A stretch of 42,065 nucleotides of DNA from Alcaligenaceae bacterium. GTDB lineage: Bacteria; Pseudomonadota; Gammaproteobacteria; Burkholderiales; Burkholderiaceae_B. This document shows, piece by piece, positions 8,902-17,310 of this stretch (within the stretch, counting starts at the first letter, position 1; each line of letters starts with the position of its first letter). Under the pieces are notes generated by a model. That model made no database searches. It worked only from the letters and a program-made list of their open reading frames with translations, and was not told the DNA's origin. A program made the translations under genes and the position numbers. The DNA lies in assembly GCA_947378965.1 (NCBI GenBank), contig CANCMG010000031.1:1-42065 (forward strand), read 5' to 3'.

Positions 8902-9873
8902 ATGAAAAATATTTTCAAAAAATGGTCAATGATCGGCTTATTGGCATTGATGGGAGTTTTTCCGGTTGCCAGTTCAGCGGCCTGGCCCGATGATCAAACG
9001 ATTGAGTTGATCGTCGGCTTTGCCCCGGGCGGCGGGACCGATCTGATGGCCCGTGCCTTGGTGCCATTTCTTGAAAAGAAACTCGCTGGCAAGGCGCGTA
9101 TCGTGGTGGTTAATAAACCTGGTGCGGGTGGCGAAATATCGTCGGCATACATCGCCCGCTCAAAACCTGACGGTTATACGGTTGGGTTTGTCAACGTACC
9201 GGGGTTCGTTTTCATTCCAATGTATAAGCAGTCGGCTTATCAAACCAGCGATCTGAAACTCATTGCCCGCGTGGTCGATGACCCCGCTGTCTTGGTGATG
9301 CACAAAAAATCAAAATACAGAACCTTTCCAGAACTGCTTGCTGCGCTAAAAAACGATCCTGGCTCGCTATCGTTTGCAACCAGCGGACGTGGTACTAGTG
9401 GTCATCAGGCGTTGCTTAAAATTGAGCAGGCGGCAGGTGTGAGAGGAACAGACATCGCCTTTAAAGGCGCGGGTGATTTCAAAAGCGCTGTGATCGGCGG
9501 GCATGTTGACTACGCGTTCTCAAGTATTGGCGAGTTTTTGACTGGCTATGCTGACTCTGATATCGCAACTGCCATGCTGGTTGTTAACCCGACTCGTGTT
9601 GCAGTGATTAAAGATGTGCCTTCGATTAAAGAACTTGGTTTTGATGTGCGAGTGAGCTCTGAGCGAGGCATCGCGGCCCCTAAGGCCTTGCCGCAAGACA
9701 TCGCAGACCGGTTGCAGAAAGCGATTCAAGACACGTTGGCAGACCCTGAGTTTTTAAAAACCATCAAGAACGATGCCCCGTTAGTTGCCTTTATGCCTGG
9801 CTCTGACTGGACAAAATCGCTTGAGAGTATGCCGGCTGAACTTATGCCGTTTGTTAGCAAAATGAAAGAATGA
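8902..9873 (+). CDS. Bug/TctC family periplasmic tricarboxylate-type receptor (first copy)
   Basis: A 323-residue protein with a clear signal peptide (lysine-rich start, hydrophobic core, VASSAAW cleavage region). The mature start IELIVGFAPGGGTDLMARALV is the signature of the Bug (TctC) family, together with VVVNKPGAGGEISSAYIARS. These receptors bind carboxylates in the periplasm, and many lack their own TctAB membrane partner, as here. The gene follows the decarboxylase pair by about 105 bases. The ligand cannot be predicted. Internal segments that usually cap the ligand are intact. Confidence 0.93.
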   Translation: MKNIFKKWSMIGLLALMGVFPVASSAAWPDDQTIELIVGFAPGGGTDLMARALVPFLEKKLAGKARIVVVNKPGAGGEISSAYIARSKPDGYTVGFVNVPGFVFIPMYKQSAYQTSDLKLIARVVDDPAVLVMHKKSKYRTFPELLAALKNDPGSLSFATSGRGTSGHQALLKIEQAAGVRGTDIAFKGAGDFKSAVIGGHVDYAFSSIGEFLTGYADSDIATAMLVVNPTRVAVIKDVPSIKELGFDVRVSSERGIAAPKALPQDIADRLQKAIQDTLADPEFLKTIKNDAPLVAFMPGSDWTKSLESMPAELMPFVSKMKE

Positions 9874-9927
9874 AGAGCCAACGCACTCCATATGCATCGG
9901 GAAGCACCAAAAGCGAATCAGGTGGCC

Positions 9928-9948
9928 TGAAGAGTGAAGAGTGAAGAG
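9928..9948. repeat. Heptamer TGAAGAG repeated three times in tandem
   Basis: Three perfect head-to-tail copies of TGAAGAG lie between the two Bug genes, 65 bases before the second start. Such a short tandem repeat can change copy number by slippage. It lies upstream of the second receptor, so it could only alter spacing in the leader, not a reading frame. Confidence 0.85.
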
Positions 9949-10013
9949 TTTTGTTGGTGGATAGTTGCGCGCTCGACTGGTTATGATTTTTGAGCTTCAG
10001 GTTCATATTTAGG

Positions 10014-10985
10014 ATGTCGGCATTGAAAATTCGTATGTTGTTCGGTGCTCTGTCGCTATGTTGTGCTTCAAATGTGTGGGCGCAATACCCCGAAAAAGCG
10101 ATTCGCTTTGTGGTGCCCTTTGCGCCTGGCGGCACGTCTGAAATTGTCGCCCGTTCGGTCGCAAGCAGCCTGACCATACAGTTAGGTCAATCGGTATATG
10201 TTGAAAATAAACCGGGTGCTGCAGGCAATATTGCGATGGCTGAGGTCAAGCGGGCAGCGCCTGATGGCTATACGTTAATCCTCGGGCATGTCGGTACGCT
10301 TGCGGTGAATCCTGCGCTGTTTGGCGCAAAGCTTCCTTACGATCCAGTTAAAGATTTTGTGGCGATTTCCTTGATTGCCAAGGTGCCAAACGTGATCGCC
10401 GTGAGCCAACGCTCTGGGTTTAAAACTCTTGCTGACATGGTTGCTGCGGCGAAAGCCAAGCCTGGCTCCATCAATTATGGTTCGGCGGGTAATGGCAGTG
10501 CAGGCCATCTGGCGATGGAATACTTCGCGGCTGAGGCGGGCATTGAATTAGTGCATGTACCTTACAAGGGTTCGGGCCCTATGCTGACGGATCTGATCGG
10601 CGGGCAAACGCAGGCGACGTTTAATGGTTTGCCTTCGTTGGTGGCGCAGATTAAAGGAGGGGCCTTAGTCCCCTTAGCAGTTGGTTCAGGTGCGCGTGCT
10701 GCCTCACTGCCCGACGTGCCGACCATCGCAGAAAGTGGTTACCCGCGGTTTGAAACTTCGCAATGGTACGGGCTGATGGCGCCTGCAGGAACGCCCGAGG
10801 CGATTATCAAGCGCCTGCAAAGCGAGGTTGTGCTTGCACTGAAATCTCCCGAAGGTACTAAACGTATGCGCGAGGATGGTGCTTTGCTAGTTGGCGATAC
10901 ACCGCAAGAATTTACCGCCTTCATTGCTCAAGAACGGGCGCGCTGGGGCGAGGTCGTCAAAAAAGCAAAAATTAACGTGGATTAG
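10014..10985 (+). CDS. Bug/TctC family periplasmic tricarboxylate-type receptor (second copy)
   Basis: A 323-residue Bug receptor. The signal peptide runs from the chosen ATG (MSALKIRMLFGALSL) to SNVWAQ, and the mature part starts YPEKAIRFVVPFAPGGTSEI. VENKPGAAGNIAMAEVKRA and INYGSAGNGSAGHLAMEYF are further family motifs. The open frame extends upstream to a TTG, but those extra residues spoil the signal peptide, so the ATG at 10014 is preferred. It is clearly diverged from the first copy, so the two probably bind different ligands. Neither has TctA or TctB genes nearby. Confidence 0.92.
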   Translation: MSALKIRMLFGALSLCCASNVWAQYPEKAIRFVVPFAPGGTSEIVARSVASSLTIQLGQSVYVENKPGAAGNIAMAEVKRAAPDGYTLILGHVGTLAVNPALFGAKLPYDPVKDFVAISLIAKVPNVIAVSQRSGFKTLADMVAAAKAKPGSINYGSAGNGSAGHLAMEYFAAEAGIELVHVPYKGSGPMLTDLIGGQTQATFNGLPSLVAQIKGGALVPLAVGSGARAASLPDVPTIAESGYPRFETSQWYGLMAPAGTPEAIIKRLQSEVVLALKSPEGTKRMREDGALLVGDTPQEFTAFIAQERARWGEVVKKAKINVD

Positions 10986-11135: not shown

Positions 11136-12050
11136 ATGTTTCGTCAAACCCTTAAACACGGCTTGGTTGCACTCGCGACAGTCGTGATTGGTAGCACGGC
11201 TTTTGCACAAGATTTAACCGGTACTTTGAAAAAAATTAAAGATACCAACACGATTACTGTCGGCCATCGCGATGCGTCATTGCCTTTTTCGTATTACGAC
11301 GATCAGCAAAAAGTGATTGGCTATGCGGTTGATATTTGCATGTACATTGTTAATGAAATTAAAAACGAACTTAAGTTACCTAACTTGCAAGTCAAGTTGG
11401 CACCGGTCACTTCGGCAACTCGCATTCCTTTGATTGCGAATGGCACGATCGACCTTGAGTGCGGTTCAACCACCAACAACGTCGAGCGTCAAAAGCAAGT
11501 GGCCTTTGGCCCAACCTATTACCTGACTGCAACACGCTTTGTGTTCAAAAAGAGTTCAGGCATCACCAATCTCGCAAGCCTAAAAGGCAAAACAGTTGTG
11601 TCGACTGCTGGCTCAACCAACCTCAAGCAAATCTCAGAAGCCAATACAGCGCAAAACCTTGGGCTGACAATCTTGGCGGCTAAAGATCACCCCGAGGCTT
11701 TCTTGATGGTTGAGACAGGTCGCGCTGCTGCGTTTGTGATGGATGATATTTTGCTGGCAGGTTTGGTCGCGGGCTCTAAAAAGCCAAGTGACTTCACAAT
11801 TTCTAGCGACGCTCTCTCAAATCCTGAGCCTTATGCCTTGATGATGCCGCGTGATGACGCACCCTTTAACAAGATGGTGACTGCTGCCGCCAGCAAGCTT
11901 TACAAGTCAGCCGAGATGCCTGCCTTGTATTCAAAATGGTTTGATAAGGCGGTGCCACCTAAGGGTTTGATCATGAATCAGCCGATGTCCGACAAAATGA
12001 AAAAAGCGTTGGCTAACCCAACCAACAACCCAGATCCTGCTAGCTATTGA
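11136..12050 (+). CDS. gltI: Glutamate/aspartate ABC transporter, periplasmic binding protein
   Basis: A 304-residue amino acid binding protein. The signal peptide MFRQTLKHGLVALATVVIG ends near AFAQ. The mature start TITVGHRDASLPFSYYDDQ with KVIGYAVDIC, then IDLECGSTTNN and ERQKQVAFGPTYYLTATRFV, matches the GltI/DEBP class for glutamate and aspartate. The two permease genes follow directly. A hairpin lies between this gene and gltJ and could raise expression of the binding protein above the permeases. Confidence 0.92.
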   Translation: MFRQTLKHGLVALATVVIGSTAFAQDLTGTLKKIKDTNTITVGHRDASLPFSYYDDQQKVIGYAVDICMYIVNEIKNELKLPNLQVKLAPVTSATRIPLIANGTIDLECGSTTNNVERQKQVAFGPTYYLTATRFVFKKSSGITNLASLKGKTVVSTAGSTNLKQISEANTAQNLGLTILAAKDHPEAFLMVETGRAAAFVMDDILLAGLVAGSKKPSDFTISSDALSNPEPYALMMPRDDAPFNKMVTAAASKLYKSAEMPALYSKWFDKAVPPKGLIMNQPMSDKMKKALANPTNNPDPASY

Positions 12051-12071
12051 TTCCCATTTAGTACAGCGGCA

Positions 12072-12119
12072 TGTCGTTGAGTCATCGGTCACGGTGCTCA
12101 GCGACATTCTGCTTTTTAT
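12072..12119 (+). terminator. Intercistronic hairpin with T-rich tail between gltI and gltJ
   Basis: TGTCGTTGAG pairs with CTCAGCGACA (ten pairs, one G-U) around a 15-base loop, followed by TTCTGCTTTTTATT. It looks like a partial terminator or a 3' stabiliser. Such elements are known between binding-protein and permease genes and set their ratio. The effect here is inferred. Confidence 0.55.
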
Positions 12120-12144
12120 TACGTCGTAACAACAGGATTGCAGC

Positions 12145-12894
12145 ATGAATTACAAATGGAATTGGGGCATTTTGTTTGAGGTGTCGCCTGAAGGCAAGGG
12201 CACCTATCTCGAGATGCTGCTTTCCGGCCTGCAGTGGACGCTCACCACGGCGTTCTTTGCCTGGATGATTGCGTTATTGCTTGGCGTAGCGGTTGGGGTG
12301 CTGCGCACCTTGCCAAGCCGTACCGGTCGTCTTGTGGGTAATGCGTATGTTGAGTTCTTTCGCAACATCCCGCTGCTGGTGCAATTGTTCTTGTGGTATT
12401 TCGTAGTGCCTGAGCTAGTCCCCGAGCATATCGGTGACTGGCTCAAGCAATTGCCCAACGCCGCGTTTTATAATGGGGTGTTAGGAGTTGGCCTGTTTAT
12501 GTCGGCGCGTGTGGCCGAGCAGGTTCGTACCGGTATTGAGTCACTGCCAGTTGGGCAGCGCATGGCAAGCACTGCGCTAGGTATGACCACAGCGCAAATG
12601 TATCGCTACGTGTTAATGCCGATGGTGTTTCGGATTATCTTCCCGCCGCTGACCTCTGAGTTATTGAATACGATCAAAAATACGTCGGTTGCCTTAACGA
12701 TTGGCTTAATGGAACTCACCGCGCGTGCGCGCTCGATGCAAGAATTTTCGTTTCAAGTGTTCGAGGCCTTTACCGTAGCCACGTTGCTATATCTATTTAC
12801 AAATATGATTGTGACGATACTCATGCGTCGTCTTGAAAAGTCGATCGCTGTACCCGGCTACCTAGGTACGTCGGCCAACGTGGTCGTTCATTAA
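12145..12894 (+). CDS. gltJ: Glutamate/aspartate ABC transporter permease GltJ
   Basis: A 249-residue inner-membrane protein of the polar amino acid permease family. The N-terminus MNYKWNWGILFEVSPEGKGT is typical of GltJ. It is followed by about five membrane spans, FRNIPLLVQLFLWYF, and the cytoplasmic EAA loop (VRTGIESLPVGQRMASTALG) that contacts the ATPase. It pairs with GltK, whose gene starts 9 bases downstream. Confidence 0.93.
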   Translation: MNYKWNWGILFEVSPEGKGTYLEMLLSGLQWTLTTAFFAWMIALLLGVAVGVLRTLPSRTGRLVGNAYVEFFRNIPLLVQLFLWYFVVPELVPEHIGDWLKQLPNAAFYNGVLGVGLFMSARVAEQVRTGIESLPVGQRMASTALGMTTAQMYRYVLMPMVFRIIFPPLTSELLNTIKNTSVALTIGLMELTARARSMQEFSFQVFEAFTVATLLYLFTNMIVTILMRRLEKSIAVPGYLGTSANVVVH

Positions 12895-12903
12895 AGGCGC
12901 GCC

Positions 12904-13593
12904 ATGTTTAGTAATTTTGATTTTGACGTGATCGCGCGTAGTTGGCCTTATCTGTTTAAAGATGGCATGTCGTTCACCCTGATGTTGACGGCCCTGGCAA
13001 CAGGGGCTGGTATCGTCTTAGGCACCGTACTGGCGCTGATGCGCTTATCGAAATTTGTGGTGTTGCAAAAGTTTGCTGCCACGTACGTCAATATTATTCG
13101 CTCGCTGCCGTTGGTGTTGGTGATCTTTTGGTTTTATTTTTTACTGCCCTACATCGGGCAATGGGTCTTAGGCTCTGAGCGGCCGATGGCAGTTGGGGCG
13201 TTCATGTCAGCGCTCGTCACGTTTTCACTGTTTGAAGCGGCTTACTTTTCAGAAATTATGCGTGCGGGTATTCAAGCCGTGCCGCGTGGCCAGTTTGCTG
13301 CAGCGCAAGCGTTAGGGATGCGGTATCACCAAGTGATGGGGTATATCGTATTGCCGCAGGCCTTTCGGGCGATGACACCTCTGTTGCTCACGCAGTCAAT
13401 TATTTTGTTTCAAGACACTTCATTGGTCTATGTGTTGTCGCTCACCGACTTCTTGGGTGCGGCAAGCAAAGTGGCTCAGCGTGATGGCCGCTTGGTCGAG
13501 ATGTATATCTTTGCGGCCCTGGTGTATTTTGTGATTTCGTTTGGCGCTTCAATGCTCGTGAAGCGCTTGCAAGCACGGATTGCAGTTCGCTGA
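12904..13593 (+). CDS. gltK: Glutamate/aspartate ABC transporter permease GltK
   Basis: A 229-residue membrane protein with about five spans, the IIRSLPLVLVIFWFYFLLP segment and the EAA loop AGIQAVPRGQFAAAQALGM followed by VLPQAFRAMTPLL. It forms the heteromeric channel with GltJ. In most genomes gltL follows at once. Here an oppositely oriented methyltransferase gene comes first and the ATPase lies 2.2 kb away. Confidence 0.93.
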   Translation: MFSNFDFDVIARSWPYLFKDGMSFTLMLTALATGAGIVLGTVLALMRLSKFVVLQKFAATYVNIIRSLPLVLVIFWFYFLLPYIGQWVLGSERPMAVGAFMSALVTFSLFEAAYFSEIMRAGIQAVPRGQFAAAQALGMRYHQVMGYIVLPQAFRAMTPLLLTQSIILFQDTSLVYVLSLTDFLGAASKVAQRDGRLVEMYIFAALVYFVISFGASMLVKRLQARIAVR

Positions 13594-13690: not shown

Positions 13691-13738
13691 GGCAAAGTCT
13701 GCTGCCAAAGCGTGCAGCGTCTCGCAGATTACTTTGCC
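13691..13738. terminator. Hairpin between gltK and the convergent methyltransferase gene
   Basis: GGCAAAGT pairs with ACTTTGCC, and CTGC with GCAG inside. The right arm overlaps the stop codon of the minus-strand gene. There is no clear T run, so if it is a convergent terminator it is weak. The stem itself is exact. Confidence 0.4.
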
Positions 13739-15450
13739 AAATCAAACCACGGCGAGGCACGATCATGGCTGGCGGCAATCTTAACCACCATGCCTTTGGT
13801 TAACTGCAAAGGCTGATCAAAACGATAGATGGTTCGTTGCCAGGCTGTCGTCGAGCGAATATCGGTTGGGGGGTTTTCCCAGGTGGTCGTTGAATCAAGC
13901 TCGATGCGAATCCATTGCACTACGCCATAGCAAGTGCCCTCAGCGGTGGCGGTGAGCCCTAAGATTTTGTCTTCTGCAGGATATGCATCCTGATTCATAA
14001 AGTCAAAACGAAATGCATCGACTGGCGCGCTCATTGGGGTTAACGCAATATCTTCGCGATAGAAGGGGATTTTTTTCGAGGCAATCGAATTAAAGTGCGA
14101 TAGATCAAAGCCGTGACTGCTTTCAATACGTAGATATTTACCAGCGGCTTCGCCACCCATTAAGGCAATCATGATGCTGGCTGCGTGCGGCACAATTAAG
14201 GCGTCGGGTTTGAGCAGGCGCTTTTTGGCGTCTTCGATTGCAGGTAGCACGTGTTCGCCAATGATCGCGCTATCAAAAATTTCATGAATCAGCACGTCAG
14301 CTTTTTCTGGCAAGTCTTTGCCCAGTTCAACGTCATACGATATTTTTGAAAGGATCGTGACGGTATCAGCAAAGCCGTTGGTCTTTACAATTTCGGTGGC
14401 GGTTTTTGCAACTAAGGGTTCGGCCTCGCAGGCAACGACTTGGGTCGCCCCAAGCTTAGCTGCCATCATTGACAATAAGCCCGAACCTGCACCAATCTCT
14501 AAAACGAGTTTGCCTGGTTGTACCGCTGTCTTGATGCCTTCAAAGTAGGCATCATTGCGGTGCGATTCGTTCATCATGGGCACGTGCCACAACGGCACCA
14601 TCTTGCTGGTAGCCCAAGCTGAACCGAGCTTGGCCACTAACAGATTGGGCGAGACTTCAAGAGCCTTATTAAACAGTTCGAGAGCCTCAGTGCCGCGGTT
14701 AAGCGCCACCAGTAAGCCAGAGGCATTTTTAAGGGCTTGCTCGTGATCAGGCTTAATGGCTAAGGCAGCAAGATAATCGGTCAGTGCTTCGTGCGCGCGG
14801 CCCATGGCATCTAAGATTTCGGCGCGGGCAAGCAAAGCAGGCAGTAAGTGCTGGGCGAGACCAAGCGCCTTGGTCAATGATTCTAAGGCTTGTGGTGCTT
14901 GTGTAAGCGCTTGCTGAGCTAGGCCCATGCCAAGGTACGACGCGGCATTAGGCTCGCACTGAATGGCGTTTTTATATTGATGGATGGCGGCGCTGTAATC
15001 GCCTGCGGCCTTCAAGGCATCCGCCTTAATTAGCCAAGGTCGAAAAGAGGTGGGTGCAATCTTAATCGCTCGCTCAGCTGCGGTAATGGCTTGCTGGTAT
15101 TGACCAAGTTGTTGATGGCATTCTGCCAGATTTACCCAACCTTCAATCTCGTTCGGGTGTGCTTTTGTATAAGTTGAATAGACCTCGACGGCGGCATCAA
15201 GGTGTTGCAATTCTCTTTCGCAGACGGCCAGGTTAAAGAGTGCATCGCCATCGTTTGGACGCAAGGCAAGCACGGCTTGGTAGCCTATTTTTGCTTCAGC
15301 AAAGTTTCCAAGTACGACATACATCAGGGCCAATAGCCGTTTGGGCTCTAGGTTGGTCGGCTCGGCCGCGCAAAGTTGAGCACAGGCTTGAATCGCCTCT
15401 GAACGTTGGCCTTGTTTAAAGGCATTTTTAATCGAATCGATGGTTTTCAT
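13729..15450 (-). CDS. TPR-repeat protein fused to a PRMT-like SAM methyltransferase
   Basis: A 573-residue protein from the ATG at 15450 (a TTG five codons upstream is the alternative). Residues 1-275 hold about seven tetratricopeptide repeats, with repeated A.....A...P spacing. From about 290 a class I methyltransferase follows: NESHRNDAYFEGI, motif I LVLEIGAGSGLLSMMAAKLGA, an acidic VACEAEP, then HEIFDSAIIGEHVLP, whose two Glu lie nine residues apart like the double-E loop of protein arginine methyltransferases. The loop wording is closest to PRMT7/PRMT9, and PRMT9 also carries N-terminal TPRs. A later TTAWQRTIYRFDQPL sits where PRMTs have the THW loop, apparently with His replaced. It should methylate a protein, with TPRs choosing the partner; substrate unknown. 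It interrupts the glt locus in opposite direction. Confidence 0.85.
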   Translation of the reverse strand: MKTIDSIKNAFKQGQRSEAIQACAQLCAAEPTNLEPKRLLALMYVVLGNFAEAKIGYQAVLALRPNDGDALFNLAVCERELQHLDAAVEVYSTYTKAHPNEIEGWVNLAECHQQLGQYQQAITAAERAIKIAPTSFRPWLIKADALKAAGDYSAAIHQYKNAIQCEPNAASYLGMGLAQQALTQAPQALESLTKALGLAQHLLPALLARAEILDAMGRAHEALTDYLAALAIKPDHEQALKNASGLLVALNRGTEALELFNKALEVSPNLLVAKLGSAWATSKMVPLWHVPMMNESHRNDAYFEGIKTAVQPGKLVLEIGAGSGLLSMMAAKLGATQVVACEAEPLVAKTATEIVKTNGFADTVTILSKISYDVELGKDLPEKADVLIHEIFDSAIIGEHVLPAIEDAKKRLLKPDALIVPHAASIMIALMGGEAAGKYLRIESSHGFDLSHFNSIASKKIPFYREDIALTPMSAPVDAFRFDFMNQDAYPAEDKILGLTATAEGTCYGVVQWIRIELDSTTTWENPPTDIRSTTAWQRTIYRFDQPLQLTKGMVVKIAASHDRASPWFDLAK

Positions 15451-15754
15451 TGGGTTTGGGCGCAAACTCGCGAAACTAGCTGAAGAAGGTAGCGCTTTTC
15501 AGGAGGAGAGACGTCAAGTCAGTCGGTCTAAATGAGCGATACACAAGGCAAAGCAAAATTATAGGTGCAAACCAGCGGTGGCTCGCTTAGGCCGCTCAGG
15601 CCTTGACTCCCGAATGGGGAAAGCTACCAAGAGATTGACGCGCCTTGAGTCGATAATAACCAATGAAATCAAAGTGTTTTAAACCTTGATCCGTGTCACA
15701 ATGCTAGGGTATGAAACGGTGGCCGTGACCCGAATATCAGTACTAGGAAACTAC
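15451..15754. other. 304-base intergenic region before gltL
   Basis: This gap must hold the divergent promoters of the methyltransferase gene and gltL. I see a short hairpin at 15589-15603 (AGGCC/GGCCT) and a CTGAA/TTCAG stem near 15480-15502, but no convincing -35/-10 pair and no RNA gene. A TTGATC at 15686 could be a -35 box, though its -10 is poor. Confidence 0.4.
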
Positions 15755-16495
15755 ATGTCAGAACAAATGATTGCGATTGAAGATGTCTCAAAATGGTACG
15801 GCAGCTTTAACGTCCTAAAGCACTGCACCACTCAGGTCAATCGTGGCGAAGTCGTGGTGGTTTGCGGGCCATCGGGTTCGGGTAAATCAACCTTGATCAA
15901 ATGCGTCAACGCGCTTGAACCATTTCAGCAAGGCAAGCTCACGATCAACGGTGTTGAACTGCATGATCCCAAAACTAATTTGCCAAAGTTACGTAGTCAA
16001 GTGGGTATGGTGTTTCAGCATTTTGAGTTGTTTCCACATTTAAGCGTGACTGAAAACCTGACCTTGGCGCAAATTAAAGTATTGGGTCGTAGCCCCGCCG
16101 AGGCCTTAGAACGTGGGTTAAAGATGCTTGATCGCGTCGGTTTAACCGCACACAAAGATAAGCATCCGGGCCAGCTCTCTGGTGGTCAACAGCAACGCGT
16201 AGCCATCGCACGTGCGTTGAGTATGGATCCTGTCGTGATGCTGTTTGATGAACCGACCTCAGCGCTCGACCCTGAAATGGTCGGTGAGGTGTTGGATGTG
16301 ATGGTCACCTTAGCTAAAGAAGGTATGACCATGATGGTGGTCACCCACGAAATGGGCTTCGCCCGCAAAGTCGCGCATCGTGTCATCTTTATGGATGAGG
16401 GCGAGATCGTTGAAGATGCCGCCAAAGAGGCGTTCTTCACTGAGGCCAAAAGCGAACGTGCACAGCAATTTTTATCGAAAATTTTGCAGCACTAA
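15755..16495 (+). CDS. gltL: Glutamate/aspartate ABC transporter ATP-binding protein GltL
   Basis: A 246-residue ABC ATPase of the polar amino acid type: Walker [11 protein letters not shown]-loop [11 protein letters not shown], signature [15 protein letters not shown], Walker [16 protein letters not shown], and switch His in [11 protein letters not shown]. The frame is open further upstream to 15686, but the ATG at 15755 begins [18 protein letters not shown], which is the normal family start, and is preceded by TAGGAAAC. It should energise GltJK. Its separation from gltIJK by an inverted gene means it needs its own promoter. Confidence 0.93.
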
Positions 16496-16677
16496 GCGTG
16501 CGGCGCAAGGTATTTCGTATTGACCTGATCTTTCGGTGAGCGTTATTCAGGCTTGTCGGTATCTGCGCCATCCATTCGGTCACTGAGGGCGTATTGCTGC
16601 CCGTGGGTTGTGACAAGTCAAGTCCACGTCATAAGTGCTTTGTATACTGAGTGATCGAATATCGAGGTGGTCACCGC

Positions 16678-17310
16678 ATGAAAGAGTATTACGCCGCGCG
16701 TGCAAAAGAATATGACCAAATTTATGCTAAGCCAGAGCGTCAGGCCGATTTACGTTTGATTGAGCAGTGGTTACCATCGCGGTTTGAAGGTGCGCGGGTA
16801 TTTGAGATTGCGTGTGGCACGGGCTACTGGACCCAGTTCTTTGCCCCGGTTTCCAAGAGAGTCTTGGGCTTAGACGCCTCGGCCGAAACTCTTCAAATTG
16901 CCCAAGCCAGACCAAATAACGAAAGCGTTCAGTGGCTTGTGGGCGACGCTTACGCGTTGCCTGCCCCGCGCGAACCCTATGATGCAGCCTTTGCGGGCTT
17001 TTGGTTTTCGCACGTGCCGCTCGCGCGTCAAAAAGAGTTTTTGTTGGGTTTGAACAAAACGCTCAGGTCAGGCGCGCGCGTGGTGATGCTAGATAACTTG
17101 TATGTCGAGGGCAATAGCACGCCTTTGATAGCGCCTGATCCAGAAGGCAATACGTATCAGCTGCGCAAGTTGGCTGATGGTTCAAGTCATCGCGTGGTTA
17201 AAAATTATCCCAATGAATTTGATCTGTGCGATTTAGTGGCCTCATTTGCTGAGCGACCAACCTACACGACGTGGCAGTACTACTGGGCGTTTGAATATAC
17301 CTTACGTTGA
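16678..17310 (+). CDS. Class I SAM-dependent methyltransferase
   Basis: A 210-residue methyltransferase. Motif I is VFEIACGTGYWT, followed by VLGLDASAETLQIAQ and VQWLVGDAYALP, then DAAFAGFWFSHVPL. This is the small soluble type that acts on metabolites. The ATG at 16678 is chosen because GAGGTGG lies just before it; a GTG nine codons upstream is the alternative. It is alone between gltL and a convergent membrane protein gene. The substrate cannot be told. Confidence 0.85.
   Translation: MKEYYAARAKEYDQIYAKPERQADLRLIEQWLPSRFEGARVFEIACGTGYWTQFFAPVSKRVLGLDASAETLQIAQARPNNESVQWLVGDAYALPAPREPYDAAFAGFWFSHVPLARQKEFLLGLNKTLRSGARVVMLDNLYVEGNSTPLIAPDPEGNTYQLRKLADGSSHRVVKNYPNEFDLCDLVASFAERPTYTTWQYYWAFEYTLR

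Follow-up and report, generated by a model that had tools for sequence, protein, structure and literature searches.

Gene locus

We analyzed a stretch of 42,065 nucleotides, hereafter the window (contig CANCMG010000031.1 of the Alcaligenaceae bacterium assembly GCA_947378965.1). On its reverse strand, a gene encoding a protein with an N-terminal TPR arm and a PRMT-type methyltransferase module, hereafter TPR-PRMT, is flanked by genes of an amino-acid-type ABC transporter. The features of the locus are as follows.

11136..13593, forward strand: amino-acid-type ABC transporter, solute-binding protein and two permeases (Pfam SBP_bac_3, BPD_transp_1, BPD_transp_1)
12904-13593, forward strand: gltK permease gene, neighbor of the TPR-PRMT gene
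13729..15465, reverse strand: TPR-PRMT gene (ORF), 578 aa from TTG, stop included
13732..14598, reverse strand: PRMT module, SAM-binding domain and beta-barrel, aa 290-578 (matches to PRMT7, PRMT9, and T. brucei PRMT7)
13840..13848, reverse strand: TAW, equivalent of the THW loop, aa 540-542
14254..14286, reverse strand: double-E loop HEIFDSAIIGE, aa 394-404, with E395 and E404
14599..15453, reverse strand: eight TPR helix pairs and a cap helix, aa 5-289 of 578 (Pfam TPR_2, AlphaFold2)
15686..16495, forward strand: ABC ATPase gene gltL (Pfam ABC_tran)

The names gltI, gltJ, gltK, and gltL were given by gene order and family. The TPR-PRMT gene lies antisense between gltK and gltL. It is sporadic in the genus, being present in 11 of 32 genomes (nine whole copies and two cut by contig ends). 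It adjoins gltK in all nine carriers examined, while gltJ, gltK, and gltL are directly consecutive in all nine loci examined from non-carrier genomes of the genus; these are 18 of the 21 gltK places, the remaining three being contig-end fragments. This is most simply explained by a single insertion of the gene, within a sublineage, into an operon already present; the transporter would then be a landing place and give no pointer to the function. Alternatively, TPR-PRMT may have been lost in the rest of the genus.

The ten neighboring ORFs of the window that we scanned encode transporter parts, a generic methyltransferase, and a TMEM43 protein. The generic methyltransferase gene (16651-17310, forward strand; Methyltransf_25, 6.7e-15) is located two genes from TPR-PRMT, and two consecutive genes of TctC solute receptors (8902-10985, forward strand) lie beside the amino-acid ABC transporter.

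The preliminary description had ended the gene at 15450, and this is indeed the ATG at codon 6 of the ORF, yielding a protein of 573 aa. Since eight close homologs carry Met at the same position (MKTIDSIK), ATG is a likelier start than TTG. In the genome itself (assembly 96% complete), the whole protein and Pfam PRMT_C had one match each, both being the TPR-PRMT gene. A scan for promoters and terminators found four promoter-like sites, where shuffled sequences gave 2.0 (sd 1.4), and two terminator-like sites, where they gave 3.1. With a GC content of 0.48-0.54, the gene resembles its surroundings (0.44-0.53).

The gene is under purifying selection. The median omega (NG86) is ∼0.065 for the whole gene and 0.073 for the TPR half, both relative to seven close relatives, and 0.047 for the catalytic half relative to eight; because of an ambiguous base, the pair with L038 is not in the first two figures (seven of eight pairs used), while the catalytic half covers all eight pairs.

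Domain architecture

The TPR arm is recognized by Pfam TPR_2 with E 4.5e-29, and a TPR family matches all 28 sequences of the alignment used for modeling (A2, see below). In the AlphaFold2 model, the arm has eight helix pairs (residues 5-271) and a further helix (276-289); the preliminary description was thus right about the presence of TPRs, while its count of about seven has to be corrected to eight. Among solved structures, this half of the protein also gives high scores with O-GlcNAc transferase and with TPR proteins made by design. Its sequence is the less conserved one, as the identity to all 24 relatives outside the lineage of the window is 11-40% in the TPR half and 41-60% in the methyltransferase half.

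Searched as a single sequence against solved structures, TPR-PRMT matches mouse PRMT7 (1.2e-39), T. brucei PRMT7 (2.4e-32), and PRMT9 (3.4e-31), the PRMT9 alignment starting at residue 211 and covering the last TPRs and then the methyltransferase. With a profile of 25 family domains, the values were 5.1e-62 for PRMT7, 2.9e-50 for PRMT9, and 8.1e-49 for T. brucei PRMT7, and the best type I PRMT was PRMT3 with 1.5e-29 (among the best 60 of 62 matches); no small-molecule methyltransferase family was on top. Pfam PRMT_C scores 17.4 to 20.6 bits on TPR-PRMT, below its cut-off of 27, and matches 22 of the 25 family domains at E up to 0.01.

The AlphaFold2 model, built from 28 aligned sequences, has a mean pLDDT of 92.9 and a pTM of 0.75. 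The TPRs are followed by a Rossmann-like domain and then by strands from 418 to 576 arranged as in the PRMT barrel, and the protein ends after this single PRMT module. In a Foldseek search of the PDB, the best match was bovine PRMT9 (8rbk, E 2.7e-21, 454 columns), followed by mouse PRMT7 and by T. brucei PRMT7 (TM 0.79 on the length of the target, 2.8 A), and the 50 matches listed include only PRMTs. Of the outcomes named beforehand as refuting, neither a model lacking the PRMT barrel nor a best match to a small-molecule family was obtained. The sequence, fold, and barrel matches therefore support the initial reading of the gene product as TPRs joined to a PRMT-type methyltransferase, and, by the features tested, TPR-PRMT is a PRMT-superfamily protein of the PRMT7/9 side.

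The closest comparisons are the animal type II enzyme PRMT9 (8rbk, 6pdm) and the type III enzyme PRMT7 (mouse 4c4a, T. brucei 4m36/4m38). Like TPR-PRMT, PRMT9 has N-terminal TPRs and a PRMT module, and this, together with the best fold match, bears out the resemblance to PRMT9 proposed in the preliminary description. However, the numbers differ, as PRMT9 has three TPRs rather than eight and carries a second, non-catalytic module (PMC13430611 and PMC10578352), whereas TPR-PRMT has one. Given these differences and a tree in which the place of PRMT9 is not settled, the resemblance does not amount to proof of orthology with PRMT9. PRMT7 is the best sequence match over the domain and shares the loop pattern but, unlike TPR-PRMT, has no TPR match. 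T. brucei PRMT7 has one matched stretch, like TPR-PRMT, and mouse PRMT7 is tandem, with two matched stretches.

Active-site motifs

The double-E and THW loops are functional elements of PRMTs. Both are discussed in PMC13430611 and PMC10578352. In TPR-PRMT, the two glutamates of the double-E loop are nine residues apart, as had been noted from the sequence. E395 and E404 occupy the double-E columns of PRMT7 and PRMT9 and are invariant in all 25 aligned methyltransferase domains, so that the spacing can hardly have arisen by chance. E323 of SAM motif I (VLEIGAGSGLL), the post-I acid E347, and Trp542 of the THW-loop equivalent are likewise invariant (25 of 25).

The THW loop indeed reads TAW. At this position, the 25 domains have SNW (17), TAW (4), ANW (2), SGW (1), or SVW (1); that is, the histidine is replaced by Ala in TPR-PRMT and three more domains and by Asn, Gly, or Val in the other 21. 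Mouse PRMT7 has DHW here, and module 1 of PRMT9 has TCW, which means that the histidine is not general in PRMTs.

The surroundings of the double-E loop resemble PRMT7 and PRMT9 as well. The RN..Y helix is common to the family, PRMT7, and PRMT9, with Phe for Tyr in some rows, and the second Glu is preceded by Gly in 22 of the 25 members (by Glu in L039 and by Ala in L050 and L056), as it is in PRMT7 and PRMT9. The type I PRMTs (PRMT1, Hmt1, PRMT2) share the fold, the double-E loop, and the barrel with TPR-PRMT but form a separate branch, and the three eukaryotic type I rows compared have R-T in the helix, Tyr or Phe before the second Glu, and an intact THW. Outside the 25 domains, on the same side of the tree, the second Glu is lost in L075 and L093.

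Distribution and phylogeny

One pattern scan of genome contigs yielded 33 loci. They comprise a lineage ∼90-93% identical to the TPR-PRMT of the window, and more distant groups from Ramlibacter, Caenimonas, Variovorax, Methylotenera and other Methylophilaceae, Sulfuritalea, Rhodospirillaceae, and loosely named MAGs. Three MAGs with a gene 91-93% identical to that of the window (L031, L032, and L036) are named Alcaligenaceae, Bordetella parapertussis, and Candidatus Methylopumilus; at least some of these names look wrong.

The whole genomes searched were from the phylum of the window, and each of the following counts includes the window's own genome. The domain profile matched 27 of 398 genomes in the phylum sample at 1e-10 (12 of those at 1e-45 or better), four of 399 in the order sample at 1e-30, and 16 of 268 in the family sample at 1e-20. 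In the plasmid collection, nine records, one of them from Streptomyces, hold distant relatives, all with less than 60% identity. None of 42 pattern matches in viral contigs was confirmed as a relative, and phages gave no match to TPR-PRMT. A mobile origin of the gene was considered and rejected, as viral and phage relatives are absent from these searches, the plasmid relatives are distant, and the GC content is unremarkable.

A plasmid of Eleftheria terrae (L093:4432-7083) encodes a protein of 883 aa with an N-terminal part that is TPR-like by eye and apparently two tandem PRMT-like modules, an arrangement known from animal PRMT7/9; the better-kept one of the two has Lys in place of the second Glu of the double-E loop. 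L087:1396-2436 encodes a bacterial type-I-like PRMT with the loop SEWMGHCLFYE, an intact THW, and matches to PRMT1 and Hmt1 near 1e-39.

Alignment A1 consists of 25 sequences from the window and L031-L062, without the near-duplicates L031, L032, L034, L036, L038, L054, and L057 and without L061, in which the match is not within one ORF. Alignment A2 has 28 sequences and excludes L032, L038, L054, L057, and L061. L063, cut by a contig end, is outside both, and L042 and L044, in which the open frames extend far upstream, were trimmed to the last 570 and 530 residues, respectively.

A tree of 58 rows, comprising relatives with loci (weaker matches without loci and the fragment L081 were kept outside), separates a PRMT7/9 side that includes TPR-PRMT from a type I side with support 99/91. 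The latter contains PRMT1, Hmt1, PRMT2, some bacterial rows, and L096 with its sisters L088 and L089. The split is retained (97/90) in a tree of 44 rows, from which 14 of the 58 rows had been dropped as long branches or near-duplicates. Still, it should not be over-read, since the AU test (p 0.089) did not reject a joint clade formed by the window group and L096, L088, and L089. Within the PRMT7/9 side, eukaryotic rows are interspersed among bacterial ones on long branches, and their order is not resolved. PRMT9 joins L093 and L075 in the 58-row tree, where long branches call for caution, and its place is not resolved in the 44-row tree, which lacks L093.

Gene neighborhoods of relatives

To compare gene contexts, we clustered the ORFs of 31 related loci. 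Gene context as a pointer to the substrate was rejected, as no partner is common across lineages. The neighborhood differs between lineages and so names no partner, and the named neighbors shared within one lineage are the housekeeping genes cstA, radC, coaBC, and lgt.

Some relatives do provide clues. The motif CPCGSG..K.CC, which we take to be the SEC-C, or SecA-like, metal-binding motif, stands at the start of 11 of the 59 proteins scanned, seven of the 11 being from Methylotenera or other Methylophilaceae; it is absent from the TPR-PRMT of the window. One type-I-side protein ends with it, making 12 of 59 in all: L083, a bacterial PRMT-like protein with the motif at residue 315 of 338. The corresponding metal-binding domain of SecA binds SecB (PMC8076867). 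In two of the 31 loci (L046 and L060), the TPR-PRMT gene is directly preceded by rimO (TIGR01125 above cut-off), the gene for a ribosomal-protein modifier, and in L060 the two genes overlap by ATGA. In L051, a gene of a TPR-GT41 glycosyltransferase is the second downstream of the TPR-PRMT gene, on the other strand. The SecA-like motif, the adjacency of rimO, and the TPR-GT41 neighbor are hints that favor protein partners. Overall, TPR-GT41 glycosyltransferase genes near a TPR-PRMT gene are found in Sulfuritalea, at L051:6521-10923 and L059:8973-13453; L051:6521-8476 was assigned by Pfam and the remaining genes by clustering only.

Plasmid relatives have contexts of a different kind. L090:7259-12477 (Pantoea) and L094:5926-9983 (Methylobacterium) carry methyltransferases of the PRMT7/9 side without TPRs, located with genes of an iron-containing redox enzyme, a Rieske protein, and an ATP-grasp protein, and in L090 also of an MFS transporter. 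These operons look like small biosynthetic clusters, and therefore not every member of the PRMT7/9 side need act on proteins. On a Streptomyces plasmid (L096:1097-8981), a PRMT-like gene lies near genes of an amidinotransferase, an arginine deiminase, a cupin, and a DUF3865 protein, which is possibly an SznE-like arginine metabolite cluster.

Possible function

Taken together, TPR-PRMT is probably a bacterial PRMT7/9-type protein arginine methyltransferase, and we infer that its substrate is an arginine in a protein. The TPR solenoid would hold the substrate protein or a partner, the guanidinium of an arginine would be gripped by E395 and E404, and an omega nitrogen would be methylated by SAM. 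Monomethyl- or symmetric dimethyl-arginine is the likely product, given that the loop resembles that of PRMT7/9 (RN..Y, Gly ahead of the second Glu) rather than that of type I enzymes (Tyr or Phe there). As TPR-PRMT lacks the second, non-catalytic module found in animal PRMT7/9, it would probably work as a dimer; T. brucei PRMT7, which is also single-module, does so. Against the reading as a protein arginine methyltransferase stand the replaced THW histidine, the sporadic occurrence in the genus, the varying neighborhood, the lack of the SecA-like motif in TPR-PRMT itself, the biosynthetic look of the L090 and L094 operons, and the outcome of the AU test. A similar design, in which TPRs would present proteins to the domain that modifies them, may underlie TPR-GT41 and O-GlcNAc-transferase-like enzymes, in which, however, the catalytic domain is unrelated and the modification is glycosylation rather than methylation. 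Another arginine methyltransferase, NDUFAF7/MidA, is of alpha-proteobacterial origin and unrelated to other PRMTs, as stated in PMC9006661.

The main rival to a protein substrate is free arginine, on which SznE acts. TPR-PRMT would then methylate arginine as a small molecule, as SznE does in streptozotocin synthesis, and the TPR arm would only assemble a complex, a reading that we regard as rather unlikely. SznE/StzE, as described in PMC11705231, is also a bacterial arginine-guanidino methyltransferase, but one that supplies N-omega-methyl-L-arginine for natural-product synthesis; it has been used to find the saskemycin cluster (PMC12637814). The biosynthetic look of the L090 and L094 operons speaks for such a role on the PRMT7/9 side, and so does the survival of the joint clade with L096, L088, and L089 in the AU test. 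On the other hand, these three fall with the type I PRMTs, away from the window, in both trees, and the ten neighboring ORFs scanned in the window contain no sign of a biosynthetic cluster. Moreover, eight TPRs would seem unneeded for a free amino acid.

The protein could also be a degenerate, non-catalytic PRMT that serves as a TPR scaffold, given the loss of the THW histidine and of the second module. This is quite improbable, as E323, E347, both loop glutamates, and the tryptophan are all invariant and omega is lower in the catalytic half than in the TPR half, while animal PRMT9 likewise has no histidine in the loop. Finally, a PrmA-like methyltransferase of ribosomal protein L11 is suggested by Pfam PrmA, the only family above cut-off in the methyltransferase domain (1.2e-10; E no higher than 0.01 in all 25 domains), and by the product name "50S ribosomal protein L11 methyltransferase" on four of the nine plasmid matches (L090, L091, L094, and L095), but it can practically be dismissed, as the match is limited to ∼90 residues of the SAM-binding core (profile positions 155-240 of 296), the NCBIfam prmA model scores 37.5 bits against a cut-off of 183, and the barrel, the double-E loop, and the PRMT-only fold matches among the 50 listed all point elsewhere.

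Significance

The methylation of arginine in proteins is mostly regarded as a eukaryotic trait and is little studied in bacteria. Domain databases list PRMT-like proteins in bacteria, and hence the TPR-PRMT family may be known as a sequence. Among the titles and abstract openings listed in searches for bacterial PRMTs, in a literature largely without subscription journals, none describes bacterial TPR-PRMTs; arginine methylated in proteins of bacteria is on record (PMC8466066). The four plasmid relatives named after L11 align with PRMTs, and such product names can conceal the TPR-PRMT family from annotation-based searches.

On a broader and tentative level, we consider it possible, if on the whole unlikely, that the family represents an overlooked arginine-methylation system of Pseudomonadota, in which TPR-guided PRMTs would modify ribosome-proximal or secreted proteins, and that this bacterial stock was the source of the eukaryotic PRMT7/PRMT9 branch, with the tandem form arising by a later duplication. 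Such targets are proposed because of the SecA-like metal-binding motifs and the rimO operons in relatives. Named isolates that carry relatives of TPR-PRMT belong to Caenimonas, Ramlibacter, and Variovorax and include Caenimonas soli (L041) and Variovorax sp. YR216 (L043), and a single-module protein with the catalytic residues kept makes the substrates of bacterial PRMTs directly testable in them. TPR-PRMTs are also simple homologs for studying the mechanism and ancestry of PRMT7/9.
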